From Ascidia mentula (lineage: Eukaryota > Chordata > Ascidiacea > Phlebobranchia > Ascidiidae), in assembly GCA_947561715.1 (NCBI GenBank), contig OX387203.1, positions 124,001 through 188,000 on the forward strand: a stretch of DNA of 64,000 nt, read 5' to 3'. Each line of letters opens with the position of its first letter. The stretch's first letter is position 1. Position numbers and translations under genes: made by a program. The notes below the pieces were generated by a model. It had not been told where the DNA came from. It made no database searches and saw only the letters and a list, made by a program, of their open reading frames with translations. Of the stretch, positions 6,530-34,032 are shown piece by piece.

Positions 6530-6538
6530 TAAATTTCG
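6530..6538. repeat. target-site duplication, left (TAAATTTCG)
   Basis: The 9-bp TAAATTTCG directly abuts the element end ACCAGAGGG and is repeated exactly at 10438-10446 after the opposite end CCCTCTGGT. Confidence 0.85.
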
Positions 6539-7261
6539 ACCAGAGGGATGTTAGTTGACAAAAAAAAATCGCCAGTTAACAAAAGTTTGAACGCGCGTTA
6601 CTCGGCAACCTTACGAGGTAGCGCCATGATTTTTTCACACGATACAGATCATAGGCTGATCTTTCCAACGATACCAAAATTATTAAAAAAAAATATATTC
6701 ATATTTGGTTATTAATATCATATGCGTATTATGACATAAGTCGCGAAAACAAGATTCGCTTCGCTAAATTTTAAAGCATAACATTCTACGCGCTAAACCC
6801 TTTCAAACGATATCAAAACTTTTGAAAAATTCGCTGGGGCTTGTACAGAAAAATGAATTTATATTTTTGAAACATGAAAAAATATCGATTTTTCCTTAAT
6901 AACTTTTTTTATCGTTATGGCCCAAGTTTCAATTTACAACCATACAAAAGCTCAAAAATCAAGCTTTCCAAAAATATTAAACATGTCTAAAAACACATTG
7001 AGCTGCCGCTGTACGAGCCGAATACACTTCAACCCTACACCCCCCACTGTAAACACGGTTTAGGGGTGCTCTGGTGCATACTTTCGCCGATAAATGTTGC
7101 TACAAAGCGAGTCGCAAGCTTTTCTTTTGCACAAACCACCTTATACCATCCCACTATCGAATGAAATCAAAGTTGAATCAATTCAGTCAGAGATGCTATG
7201 CTAAATCCAACGATTACTTACTCAAACCCGACCGTCGCCCGCCGCTTTTTTAAACCGCCAA
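6539..7261. repeat. left terminal inverted repeat
   Basis: Reverse complement of 9714-10437. The inner edge lies at AAACCGCCAA, which mirrors the last codons and stop of the element's gene. The arm contains no sizeable ORF. Confidence 0.88.
7081..7229 (+). repeat. subterminal repeat, copy 1 of a direct pair
   Basis: This part of the left arm starts CTTTCGCCGATAAATG and recurs directly at 7285-7432 with almost no change, separated by 55 bp. A third, inverted copy lies in the right arm. Confidence 0.85.
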
Positions 7262-7284
7262 GCCATATGTATGGGCGTCACGTA

Positions 7285-7432
7285 CTTTCGCCGATAAATG
7301 TTGCTACAAAGCGAGTCGCAAGCTTTTCTTTTGCACAAACCACCTTATACCATCCCACTATCGAATGAAATCAAAGTTGAATCAATTCAGTCAGAGATGC
7401 TATGCTAAATCCAACGATTACTTACTCAAACC
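7285..7432 (+). repeat. subterminal repeat, copy 2
   Basis: Direct copy of 7081-7229 lying just inside the left arm, which makes the element's left side asymmetric with its right side. Confidence 0.85.
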
Positions 7433-7589
7433 AGACCGATTAGTATGAAAACTAACATTATTACATGTTCATATTATAAAATTATGTTTGCAACATTTGT
7501 TTTTATAGTTCATTACTACAAAGAATCTTACTATCAGTTGTTTTCGCAACATTATTTTTGCGTTGGACCCCATTAGGCGGGAAGTATCT

Positions 7590-7715
7590 GATAAGTCGGT
7601 GAGCCGAGTGATCGGAATCAGCGAGGCTCAAGGCCGCGCGGCGGGCAGAGAGATCGGGGGCTACGAGGCTCAAGATCGGGCGGCGTGTTTTCTGATCGGC
7701 ACAAATCGGGTAATT
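7590..7715 (+). promoter_or_regulatory. GC-rich GATCGG-repeat stretch upstream of the SGNH gene
   Basis: Several GATCGG-type hexamers and two copies of an ACGAGGCTCAAG-like block occur in a clearly GC-richer patch between the left repeats and the start codon at 7821. It could be a promoter or a protein-binding array of the element; this is inference from position and repetition only. Confidence 0.35.
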
Positions 7716-7820
7716 ATAGATTCTTCAATATAAGCAAACACAAACAGAAAGTCATTCATTCTCATTGAGAAACCAATTGCAAACGGCGAAGCTACGACAT
7801 ACATTGTTACGAAACAAGCT

Positions 7821-9725
7821 ATGGAGAAGTCGATCATTGAAAACTGGTTGAATGTTTGTACCCAGCCAAAGGTAAGAACTCTTTTTCGAGCATTGTTTAT
7901 TGTTAATGTGTATAAATTTAACTTCGTTTACTTTTTTTGCAGCCATCAAGAGTGGAGAAGTACGGCCTTGGGATATCTGGGAAGCAGACAATGTGGCGGG
8001 TTCCCGTCAAAAGCAGCCGGAAACGGTTGCTGTATATTTCCGACAGCAATGCTCGGAAATACGTTTTGCCTTATGAGGTGAAACCATCTAATTCTTTTTC
8101 TTTTGATTTTGCAGCTTTAAGCATGCGTGGTGGTATCATCTGGCATGCAATACAGGAACTATCTTCATCTCCAATCGTGGAAGACGTCGAAGTTGTTGTC
8201 ATAGGGTTTGGCACCAATGATGTTCTCGCAATGAAAGGTGACAACCCTATGAATGGTGGCATTAGCGGAATTGTTGGCCGCATGAAAGCTCTTGTCCGAT
8301 TGGTAAGGACACTTTACCCATTCGTCAAGGTATGTAGAAATACTATACATTACTTTGTGTCATTTAAACAATATACGTTCTAAGTATTTATACCCTATTT
8401 CGCGTTGCAGATTTTTCACACTGGAATATTGCCTTCGACAAAAAAGCCACGTTTGGTTACATCCCTTAACAAAGAGTTGAGGAAGTCAGCAGAAGAAGTG
8501 GAACTTCGGTTTATTGAGGGTGGCATCCCATCGCAGTTACTTAGTAACGATGGGATCCATCTTTCAGATGAAGGGCTACAACTTCTGCTGACACACGTGG
8601 AAAGGACTGTCCAATCACAGGAGGTGGTGGTCAAGGCTTCTATCCAAGATTTCCCCGAATTAAATGCGGGAACAGCGATAACGCCGGGTCCACTGTTGGT
8701 GAGTACACATGTGTTTACAACAAAACTATAACAATAACGACATTATGTTACACTAGGAGTCCATGGAGCAGATGGAACCGGTGAAAACAAGGCCAACATT
8801 TCTCGATATTGTTCAGGAAAAGACGCAGCAGGTAAATTATTACATAATATATCACAACCCACTGTATCGTAGTATAACTTGCAGTTAAACAAACTACATT
8901 TGTATTTGCTAGGTTGACAAACCGTCATATGTACGGTTAGCTCCAGTACAGCGATCGGCTCCAGAGTACGATTGGCTCCAGAGGCCTTCCCAAATATGGG
9001 GAGGAGGAGTACTGGATTCCAACCTGCGGTCTTCCACCAAACTGCACACCAGACGACAACGGAATGTGGCGCAAGCATCGGAGTCCGGATGGATGGTTGT
9101 AACAAGGCGAGGAGGAAGAACGTCGGGGTACTCGAGCAGCGAGGAGTTCCAGCCCAACCCATCACCAGAGGACATCGAGATGACCAGCCCAACACCAGAG
9201 GACACCGAGATGACCAACACCCCACTGAATAAGTGTATGAAGAGAAAGAAGAAGAAGAAGAGTCCTAACGCCAAGAAGGCCGCGTCACCGCAGATGAAGT
9301 GTGCTCGAAGGGAAATTCCCGACAACAAGAACATCGCGTCACCACCGATGAAGTGTGCTCGAAGGGAAATTCCCGAGACCGTCTCGCCAACGTCTTGTAA
9401 GGAAAAGAAGAAACAAGGTAATTTAACAATTGATATATTTGTGAGAGCAATAACTACGTTCTCAACATTTGACCCTCACGCCCTCTCGTCGTGGCATGCT
9501 TTGGTTAGTTTTTTTTCTAAAAGAAGAATGTCAAACGCAGAACGTCGCAAAAAAGTTCGTAAACTTCAAAGATTTTGGGAACGCAATAGAATTGACATAA
9601 CAACGTCTCTTCGCGAATCATCATGTAGTTGTAATATTGTTGGAAATGATAACGGCGAAGAACCTGTTTGCGCTGCTAGTCCATCCAATGTCGAATTTAA
9701 AGAACTACAAAATTTGGCGGTTTAA
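7821..9725 (+). CDS. SGNH/GDSL-hydrolase protein encoded by the transposon (537 aa)
   Basis: Five exons, 7821-7871, 7943-8329, 8411-8698, 8757-8831 and 8913-9725, all with phase-0 GT-AG introns. The start is the ATG at 7821; the stop is TAA at 9723-9725, inside the right inverted repeat. Residues about 44-215 form an SGNH hydrolase: nucleophile block YISDSNARK (Ser52), Gly block SMRGG (about 80), FGTND (Asn109) and DGIHLSDEG (Asp193/His196), so the catalytic set is complete. The family hydrolyses esters of lipids or carbohydrates; the substrate here is unknown. The C-terminal half is low complexity and basic: two tandem copies of MKCARREIP, acidic SPED/TPED repeats, a KKKKK cluster that could be a nuclear signal, and a final basic segment with ERRKKVRKLQRFWER that could bind nucleic acid. 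Esterase domains are known in the ORF1 of some CR1-type LINEs, but no reverse transcriptase is present here. Confidence 0.85.
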
Positions 9726-10437
9726 AAAAGCGGCGGGCGACGGTCGGGTTTGAGTAAGTAATCGTTGGATTTAGCATAGCATCTCTGACTGAATTGATTC
9801 AACTTTGATTTCATTCGATAGTGGGATGGTATAAGGTGGTTTGTGCAAAAGAAAAGCTTGCGACTCGCTTTGTAGCAACATTTATCGGCGAAAGTATGCA
9901 CCAGAGCACCCCTAAACCGTGTTTACAGTGGGGGGTGTAGGGTTGAAGTGTATTCGGCTCGTACAGCGGCAGCTCAATGTGTTTTTAGACATGTTTAATA
10001 TTTTTGGAAAGCTTGATTTTTGAGCTTTTGTATGGTTGTAAATTGAAACTTGGGCCATAACGATAAAAAAAGTTATCAAGGAAAAATCGATATTTTTTCA
10101 TGTTTCAAAAAAATAAATTCATTTTTCTGTACAAGCCCCAGCGAATTTTTCAAAAGTTTTGATATCGTTTGAAAGGGTTTAGCGCGTAGAATGTTATGCT
10201 TTAAAATTTAGCGAAGCGAATCTTGTTTTCGCGACTTATGTCATAATACGCATATGATATTAATAACCAAATATGAATATATTTTTTTTTAATAATTTTG
10301 GTATCGTTGGAAAGATTAGCCTATGATCTGTATCGTGTGAAAAAATCATGGCGCTACCTCGTAAGGTTGCCGAGTAACGCGCGTTCAAACTTTTGTTAAC
10401 TGGCGACTTTTTTTTTGTCAACTAACATCCCTCTGGT
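9714..10437. repeat. right terminal inverted repeat
   Basis: Reverse complement of 6539-7261. It begins within the last four codons of the SGNH gene and ends at CCCTCTGGT. Confidence 0.88.
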
Positions 10438-10446
10438 TAAATTTCG
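10438..10446. repeat. target-site duplication, right (TAAATTTCG)
   Basis: Exact copy of 6530-6538, marking the insertion site. Confidence 0.85.
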
Positions 10447-32300: not shown

Positions 32301-34032
32301 AACGCTCACTGTATCTGTGCCTATGAAACAGTAGCTTTAATGTAAAATGTCACAGCTGGTGGAGAACGGAGCGGGTAATCACGTGACCAAGTGCAGACCT
32401 GCCCACAACAACAGAAATCACATAAAATTTCCTCCCCCAGAGAACTCCGGATCCGTCAACCTTCCATCTTCCTCATCAACATCTGCATCTGTCTCCTAGC
32501 AACCAACCTCATATTCCTACTCGGTCTCTCGAACGTGAAACGCGACGCCGAGTGTTACGCCACAACCGTTCTGCTTCACTACTTTCTCCTCGCCGCTTGG
32601 TGCTGGATGACGTCAAATGGTTACAACATGTACAGAGCACTGGTTCAGGTTAGGGGATTTCCGAAATGGCGTTGTTTGCGATCAAAGTTCGTTGGTGACG
32701 TGACAAACAAACGATTGTTGTAATTGGTTTGACACAAGATTTCTATGTTCAGGTTATGTCCGCCAAGTCCAAGAACACGTGGAAATTCGCTGCCTTGTTT
32801 TCGTATGTACTGCCTCTAGTGGTGGTCGGTGTGACAGCAGGGGTTACCTTGATCCACTTAGATCCTCTACAACCTAACATAGGTAATTATATAACAGTTC
32901 CCATTCAATTGACAGGGATGAATGCCCATTATTACGTCACACACGTATTCGCAGGACAACCTCTTTTCCAATCCACGTACAGAGCTCGCAACATGTGTTG
33001 GCTTCAGACTCTTTCCCTCAGATATTCCTTCATAATCCCTGTAGGGATAATGGCTATAGCGAACTTGCTCTTCTGCTCATCCATCATAGTCCACCTCACC
33101 TGCAAGCGGGGAGCGGTAAGATCACGTGACAGCGTTGCTATAGTGACACCGAACCTTTTCTTTCGAAATGGTGGTTTAACTTTTTGTGCAATAAGCGAAG
33201 AAAAAAAAATACAAATACACATTACGTCACCACCAATGACGTCATATTATGAATGCAGATCCAGTCTTCTGCCGCCGAACGCACAACGTCTCATGACATG
33301 ATTGTTGCCGTGACACTCGTTGTCATGCTTGGAGTCACGTGGTTGTTTGGGTTCCTCATGTTGGTGGCTGACAATAAGATTTACCTGGAAATCACCTCGT
33401 GGATCTTCTGCATCTTTAATGTCTTCCAGGTGATTCCCCTAATTAGGTGTGGGCACATTCCAGGCCTCAAAGTAGGGACTTTCCCAACAAGTTTATTTAA
33501 CAAGGGGAACGAAGAGGCTGAAATTTATGATAAATAAGAGTTTAAACCATGTATTAAGCATTAAGTATACAGATATTGGGGAAAAAAATATTGAGTATAA
33601 AGATATTGAGTATAAAGATATTGAGTATAAAGATATTGAGTATAAAGATATTGAGTATAAAGATATTGGGGAAAAATTATTGAGTATAAAAATATTGAGT
33701 ATAAAGATATTAAGTATAAAGATATTGAGTATAAAGATATTGAGTATAAAAATATTGAGCATAAAGATATTGAGTATAAAAATATTGAGTATAAAAATAT
33801 TGAGTATAAAAATTTTGAGTATAAAGATATTGATCCGTTGTAATCACTTTCCCACCAGGGTTTTTTGATTTTCATCCTAAACTGTGTGAGACAAGACAAC
33901 GTCAGAGCTCTCTGGCTCCACCCAATGATGAGATGCTTGACGTGCGGAAATTATTACGCACCCAAACCAACAACATCAACAAAATCAACCTCTTCGCCCT
34001 ACACATCTCAAGTCAACTCGTCGAAGATTTAA
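23369..34032 (+). CDS. adhesion GPCR with LCCL and EGF domains (1138 aa, 24 exons)
   Basis: Exons: 23369-23444, 23943-24107, 24788-24904, 25051-25200, 26409-26540, 27001-27108, 27335-27448, 27755-27871, 28126-28239, 28963-29076, 29244-29369, 29657-29746, 30006-30124, 30258-30437, 30569-30660, 30811-30916, 31237-31452, 31510-31629, 31771-31905, 32120-32229, 32441-32648, 32753-33115, 33259-33429 and 33859-34032. Order: signal peptide; LCCL (26-119, VQCPANC...VCGSGPY); LCCL (120-213); six EGF-like modules (214-444), the fourth calcium-binding (DINEC); a HormR-like segment (FPETSIGS); GAIN-like region; GPS (753-797); seven TM helices (about 800-1090); short tail. The first twelve exon junctions are phase 1, the classic shuffled-module arrangement. 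The GPS keeps CLCN but has KVG where HLT is usual, so self-cleavage is unlikely. A large ectodomain receptor for adhesion or matrix sensing is inferred; the ligand is unknown. Possible poly(A) signals lie near 34945 and 34980. Confidence 0.93.
25828..25908. mobile_element. hAT-like miniature inverted-repeat element
   Basis: The ends TAGGGATCCACCGAAA and TTTTGGTGCATCCCCTA are imperfect inverted repeats of the TAGGGATGCACCGAAA type common in hAT/Charlie elements. About 80 bp, non-coding, in intron 4 of the adhesion GPCR gene. No clear 8-bp duplication was seen. Confidence 0.4.
33559..33835 (+). repeat. 15-bp minisatellite in the last intron of the adhesion GPCR gene
   Basis: About seventeen units of GAGTATAAAGATATT with single-base variants and two longer spacer units (GGGGAAAAA type). 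It lies between exons 23 and 24 and ends 23 bp before the acceptor. Confidence 0.94.

Follow-up and report, generated by a model that had tools for sequence, protein, structure and literature searches.

A probable internally deleted copy of a Rehavkus-like DNA transposon in Ascidia mentula, and the SGNH esterase that its longer relatives appear to join to a transposase

Among DNA transposons with terminal inverted repeats (TIRs), the Mutator-related group Rehavkus is described in the available text of PMC6446971 by a 9-bp target duplication, TIRs of 26-400 bp, one open reading frame, a PHD finger and a minisatellite. One member, Rehavkus-1_TC of Tribolium, is 9.5 kb long and has inverted termini with a 164-bp tandem unit, according to the accessible part of PMC10218199. 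SGNH esterases, for their part, are recurrent in the ORF1 proteins of LINEs (PMC3905857) and occur also with Helitrons (PMC4021074), and their role is unsettled. For the ZfL2-1 esterase, ester hydrolysis and phospholipid binding are reported in the accessible text, whose authors favour membrane targeting (PMC3905857), and a similar role is raised in the discussion part of PMC4021074 for texim, the SGNH hydrolase of fish Helitrons. In the literature covered here on SGNH proteins with transposases and on Rehavkus, a body of partly available texts with Repbase reports and most subscription papers outside its scope, none describes an SGNH protein joined to the transposase of a TIR element. The available main text of PMC6446971 contains none of the words "SGNH", "ULP1" and "esterase", and the available text of PMC13359780 none of "SGNH", "ULP1" and "PHD".

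Here we describe an element of 3,899 bp (6539-10437) in a window of the Ascidia mentula genome, the window being the whole stretch of DNA analysed, 64,000 nucleotides in length. A first-pass annotation made from the letters of the sequence had read this element as a young long-TIR transposon with an intact SGNH hydrolase as its sole gene and with no known transposase, and had offered two explanations, namely captured cargo still under selection, or a new class of element in which the SGNH protein with its basic tail takes part in mobility or host interaction. The features are as follows, in positions of the window.

6530-6538, no strand: left target duplication TAAATTTCG, 9 bp
6539-7261, plus strand: left TIR, 723 bp
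7283-7438, plus strand: incomplete second repeat (156 bp) of the 204-bp tandem unit starting at 7079; more units in other copies
7821-7871, plus strand: exon 1 of the SGNH gene
7943-8329, plus strand: exon 2, SGNH domain with Ser52, Gly80 and Asn109
8411-8698, plus strand: exon 3, end of the SGNH domain with Asp193 and His196
8757-8831, plus strand: exon 4 of the SGNH gene
8913-9725, plus strand: exon 5 of the window copy, basic repetitive linker and beginning of the next region; exon 5 of the sister copy L014 extends into the DDE region
9701-9713, no strand: 13-bp filler at the deletion junction, with L014 homology up to 9700 and TIR homology from 9714
9714-10437, minus strand: right TIR, 724 bp, containing the gene's stop codon at 9723-9725
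10438-10446, no strand: right target duplication TAAATTTCG, 9 bp

The anatomy first read from the sequence was borne out by measurement. The two TIR arms, of 723 and 724 bp, are 99.4% identical over an alignment of 724 columns, and the same perfect 9-bp duplication stands on both sides of the element. The view of a young long-TIR DNA element was right. The left arm also contains a 204-bp tandem unit, at 7079-7234 and then as a second partial copy at 7283-7438, which had gone without mention, as had the deletion junction at the 3' end of the gene. The gene is intact in the way that had been claimed: its five exons are open from start to stop and encode 537 amino acids, and its introns are all in phase 0 with GT..AG borders. 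The protein matches the Pfam family Lipase_GDSL_2 (PF13472) at 33.1 bits against a cut-off of 32.9, which is a modest match for a single sequence.

The window copy was compared with 27 other TIR-bearing loci of the same genome, giving 28 copies in all, with one locus taken in two pieces and some loci showing a single end within the fetched stretch. Copies had been proposed to be counted by their TIRs, and in the genome of 196 Mb the window TIR has at least 112 matches, a figure that takes in tandem units and is a lower bound because 40 of 491 candidates were scored. SGNH is not present in every copy: by segment coverage, exon 3 is complete in 10 of the 28, and 7 have half or more of the DDE region. 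Not one of the 28 carries the full set of segments, and none is a complete, intact member of the window family, in a search that scored 40 of 491 candidates; together they form an overlapping set of internal-deletion derivatives. TTAGGG repeats are present in the genome, and a scan for viral contigs returned 73 pattern matches with no confirmed relatives.

Four of these sister copies are informative about what lies beyond the SGNH gene. In L014 all five SGNH exons are present, the fifth leading into the DDE region as a frame of 882 amino acids. L018 is without SGNH and has a frame of 1,248 amino acids that runs from the linker through the DDE and C48 regions to the stop of the PHD finger. L025 combines SGNH exons 1-3 with DDE, C48 and PHD segments and has stops within the DDE region, and L042, from a sister subfamily, has matches to SGNH, DDE, C48 and PHD, its exon 5 being spread over two overlapping frames and its C48 part gapped. 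The statement of the first-pass annotation that SGNH is the sole gene next to no known transposase holds for the window copy and fails for the family, where sister copies continue exon 5 in frame into a putative DDE-type transposase and L018 goes on to C48 and PHD.

The structure of the window copy accounts for this difference. Homology with L014 reaches 9700 and homology with the right TIR begins at 9714, the 13 bp between them being filler, so that the last codons of the window gene and its stop derive from filler and TIR. About 3.5 kb of L018, comprising DDE, C48 and PHD, is missing from the window copy (3,480 bp between the arrays and the shared part). The "basic tail" of the window protein is therefore the linker that joins SGNH to the transposase, and the lack of a transposase is true of the window copy only. 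Our main reading, to which we give a probability of roughly 85%, is that the window element is a non-autonomous derivative, by internal deletion, of a longer Rehavkus-like DNA transposon. The longer element would encode, apparently in one gene, a protein that starts with an SGNH esterase at its N terminus and continues with a basic repetitive linker, a DDE-type transposase containing a C(2)H motif and a C48 (Ulp1/SUMO-type) protease before ending in a PHD finger, the exons from SGNH to PHD being presumably spliced into a single mRNA.

The DDE region was aligned for eight sequences from the window family, the sister subfamily and the diverged subfamily, the last being 25-28% identical to the rest. 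D238, D311 and C358xxH361 are invariant in all eight, and the seven rows that extend as far as TQGI(M/I)E all have its glutamate, L014 ending before; these positions together are the putative catalytic residues. For the eight members of this alignment no Pfam family was found at a meaningful E-value, and the DDE region has no match among PDB sequences. The AlphaFold model of the region is poor (mean pLDDT 37); strands and helices follow one another in it as in an RNase H fold, which weakly favours such a fold. When excised, the C48 stretch of L018 reaches 26.4 bits against the Pfam cut-off of 20.7, and its PHD finger matches PF00628 at 28.2 bits against a cut-off of 24, with PDB matches from 2e-5. 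A profile comparison of C48 between the window family and the diverged subfamily was non-significant (probability 0.2, E 0.31), with common His/Asp/Cys motifs inside the aligned part.

The SGNH part is 53% identical in the subfamily of L047 and 32-33% identical in that of L038-L041. In an alignment of six sequences, including L047 and the diverged subfamily and leaving aside L046, of which exon 2 only is present, Ser52, Gly80, Asn109, Asp193 and His196 are unchanged in all six, in agreement with the full catalytic set first annotated. Against the PF13472 cut-off of 32.9, L039 scores 40.6 bits and L047 31.8 bits, which is below it. L047 has TIRs, and no transposase was found in L047 itself; damaged transposase pieces lie near L046.

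The ratio dN/dS had been named as a check across copies. For WIN (the window copy), L014, L025, L028 and L042-L045 it is 0.26-0.46 in pairs with dS above 0.05, for L046 and L047 it is 0.08 over 120 codons, and in the diverged subfamily it is 0.12-0.25, where pairs with L038 have dS above 1; between lineages it is thus well below 1. The most recent pair, WIN and L014, differs by four nonsynonymous and two synonymous changes in 225 codons and therefore shows no sign of selection after those insertions. Higher values were obtained for WIN-L014 (0.63), WIN-L023 (0.57), WIN-L012/13 (0.51), WIN-L021 (0.86) and L025-L021 (0.94). The pairs with these values involve very recent, short or broken copies.

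In the diverged subfamily, 30 SGNH loci (31-37% identity) were set against 29 DDE loci (26-39%), with pairing allowed within 8 kb. At 19 of the 30 a DDE locus lies 3.2-5.7 kb downstream on the same strand, compared with a mean of 0.017 pairs and a maximum of 1 in 2,000 runs of random placement. For the remaining 11 SGNH loci the 8-kb range contains no DDE match, and 10 DDE loci are likewise unpaired, in a DDE search that scored 98 of 193 candidates. The open frames here extend over 2,181-2,382 amino acids, as limited by the ends of the fetched stretches; each of the three proteins scanned has a PHD finger together with a UCH (deubiquitinase-type) domain, the frames also hold the DDE region, and a C48-like stretch reaches 14.4 and 13.1 bits, below the Pfam cut-off of 20.7. 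At C72:4743885-4763871, the SGNH and DDE loci lie between two oppositely oriented arrays of a 206-bp unit, and on this ground the diverged element is about 20 kb long. Because the transposase gene of the family appears to begin with the SGNH part, SGNH looks, at the level of sequence, like a built-in part of this transposon family rather than a lone passenger gene; and its recurrence in diverged subfamilies, with catalytic positions kept and dN/dS well below 1 between lineages, argues that it is not random cargo.

Regarding mobility, the perfect 9-bp duplication occurs in 8 of the 17 two-ended copies, 8 of 9 bases agree in 2 more, and the other 7 have 4-7 of 9; the scoring tolerated ends displaced by as much as 2 bp. 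L027, which is among these 7, may combine ends of different elements. Movement would be of the cut-and-paste kind, producing the 9-bp target duplication, and the deletion with its filler in the window copy may have arisen from incomplete repair after excision. Copies such as the window one would be mobilised in trans by the protein of longer copies. Four copies in which SGNH is absent (L010, L011, L015 and L030) have perfect duplications, and SGNH is therefore not required within the moving copy. The earlier proposal that SGNH takes part in mobility is one with which we agree to this extent, that it may well do so.

Three other explanations of the SGNH gene have to be weighed against these observations. 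It might be a captured host gene, a passenger as in pack-MULEs with no role in transposition. Precedent exists in the SGNH gene taken by fish Helitrons, as given in the available text of PMC4021074, and the four SGNH-less copies with perfect duplications show that a moving copy need not contain it; against this, SGNH is found in diverged subfamilies with invariant catalytic residues and with dN/dS below 0.5 in most between-lineage comparisons, a transposase accompanies it at 19 of the 30 loci of the diverged subfamily, and the two share a reading frame in the window family. We regard capture as improbable, and plain capture of a host gene is rejected on the sister copies. The in-frame continuation, the pairing and the conserved catalytic residues likewise disfavour the captured-cargo alternative first offered. 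What had been expected to overturn the first reading, namely copies with a standard transposase together with a host gene free of purifying selection, was found by half: transposase-bearing copies exist, with a transposase that Pfam does not recognise, but SGNH is conserved across diverged subfamilies. The opposite proposal, a new class driven by the SGNH and basic-tail protein alone, could appeal to a window gene that is open from start to stop and to a perfect target duplication; yet that gene takes its final codons and its stop from filler and TIR, a transposase is present in sister copies bearing these TIRs, and copies lacking SGNH show perfect duplications too, so we give this proposal practically no credence. 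An SGNH-only class of elements is ruled out by the transposase-bearing sister copies, and SGNH as the sole product of such a class had to be given up, as these copies continue exon 5 in frame into DDE-type transposase, C48 protease and PHD finger.

A more substantial doubt concerns the number of products, for the SGNH protein and the transposase could be two genes or products of one element, in the manner of LINE ORF1 and ORF2, instead of one polypeptide. An intervening stretch separates the SGNH exons from the frame of 2.2-2.4 thousand amino acids in the diverged subfamily, and exon 5 of L042 is split over two overlapping frames, whereas L014 is stop-free from the start of exon 5 to the DDE region with SGNH exons 1-4 ahead of it. 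We consider two products unlikely, although clearly less so than host capture, and prefer the reading of a single gene that begins with SGNH.

As to what the SGNH part does, a profile of six relatives finds as its best PDB match the ORF1-encoded protein 4c1b (E 6.4e-6), which we take to be the ZfL2-1 esterase, and PAF acetylhydrolases come next from E 1.1e-5; this margin is small, and either LINE ORF1 or PAF acetylhydrolase may be the nearer kin. The SGNH part might remove acyl groups or bind lipids on behalf of the transposase complex or its host partners, as proposed for the LINE ORF1 esterase. The PHD finger and the SUMO/ubiquitin-type protease domains suggest a nuclear, chromatin-facing protein, so that the SGNH part could as well deacylate the transposase complex or host proteins as bind lipids. 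Our tentative view, held at a little under even odds, is that in a lineage of large Rehavkus-like transposons an active SGNH esterase may have become a functional component of the transposition protein, alongside a chromatin reader (PHD) and proteases of the SUMO/ubiquitin type (C48, with UCH added in the diverged subfamily). If true, it would be a DNA-transposon parallel to the LINE ORF1 esterase and would suggest that deacylation or lipid binding aids very different mobile elements. An SGNH gene conserved upstream of a DDE-type transposase, and in one family in frame with it, offers a second kind of mobile element for testing the role of the esterase. The window copy also illustrates that a deletion derivative, read alone, can pass for a new class of element.

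Compared with known systems, the element shares long TIRs and a 9-bp duplication with canonical MULEs and differs in its transposase, as the MULE profile PF10551 matches none of the eight aligned transposases and, of its 49 places in the genome, none lies at the DDE loci by eye. KDZ transposons have multi-domain transposase proteins, as the element here does, and the KDZ profile PF18758 again matches none of the eight, its 6 genome places including none at the DDE loci by eye. Identity with a canonical MULE or with KDZ is ruled out by these Pfam results. Like the SGNH proteins of LINE ORF1 (ZfL2-1, CR1/L2), the esterase here stands at the N-terminal side of a mobile-element protein, but those elements are reverse-transcribing and this one has TIRs. 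Like texim of fish Helitrons, it is an intron-bearing SGNH hydrolase gene tied to a DNA transposon; texim, in the available text of PMC4021074, is captured and goes with some Helitrons only, whereas here an in-frame exon leads into the transposase and the association extends across diverged subfamilies. The closest described kind is Rehavkus, and the element works and looks like one, a likeness drawn by structural description only. As far as the available Rehavkus descriptions go, SGNH, C48 and, for the diverged subfamily, UCH are absent from them, and the TIR of 723 bp here exceeds the published 26-400 bp, a range taken from few elements. We call the element Rehavkus-like because three structural features agree and TIR length does not: the 9-bp target duplication, here perfect in 8 of 17 two-ended copies; the PHD finger, here in L018 and in the three diverged-subfamily proteins scanned; and tandem units in or next to the inverted termini, here of 204 bp in the window family and in 206-bp arrays in the diverged one. 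A DDE-type transposase, here a putative one, would be a further likeness in the same partly available descriptions.

A possible sign of exchange between elements comes from the subfamily most diverged from the window element, in which one locus combines SGNH and DDE-type transposase segments of discordant divergence.

L040:2001-3851, probable mosaic SGNH/DDE copy, compared with the subfamily loci L039 and L041

In the dS comparison, the SGNH segment of L040 is separated from those of L039 and L041 by only 0.22-0.29, but its DDE segment by 1.9, while L039 and L041 differ by 0.22 in DDE; these sequence divergences therefore suggest that L040 is a mosaic, with segments swapped between diverged elements. 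The same subfamily includes elements of about 20 kb, whose inverted termini are formed by arrays of a 206-bp satellite unit, with the SGNH and DDE loci between them and PHD and UCH domains in long open frames.

G000:C72:4743885-4763871, satellite-ended element (L039)
C69:20720579-20742088, satellite-ended element
C69:18926449-18946478, satellite-ended element

Residue 79 of the window SGNH protein (exon 2), adjoining catalytic Gly80, is Arg, where the SGNH sequence comparison gives Pro in L025, L047 and L038-L041 and Ser in L014; this Arg may impair the enzyme of this copy. Two other open frames were recorded, the first of which resembles an integrase-core protein on visual inspection.

L026:3411-4574, minus strand, 388 aa, in a TIR-bearing locus
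window 33476-33865, plus strand, mostly short tandem IEYKD-like units

One related element lies within the SGNH part of another copy.

L012:4155-5730, nested related element, 1,576 bp, ends with about 82% similarity to the TIR of the window element

Two loci on G000:C67 (L020 and L021, at 6.58 and 6.65 Mb) share one rearrangement, in which part of exon 5 is inverted and abuts the exon-1 side, and thus the derivative form itself has multiplied. SGNH exon matches of 84-92% identity, repeated along two further regions, perhaps reflect local amplification.

G000:C2:1158424-1403600, SGNH exon match series
G000:C71:17849441-19015378, SGNH exon match series
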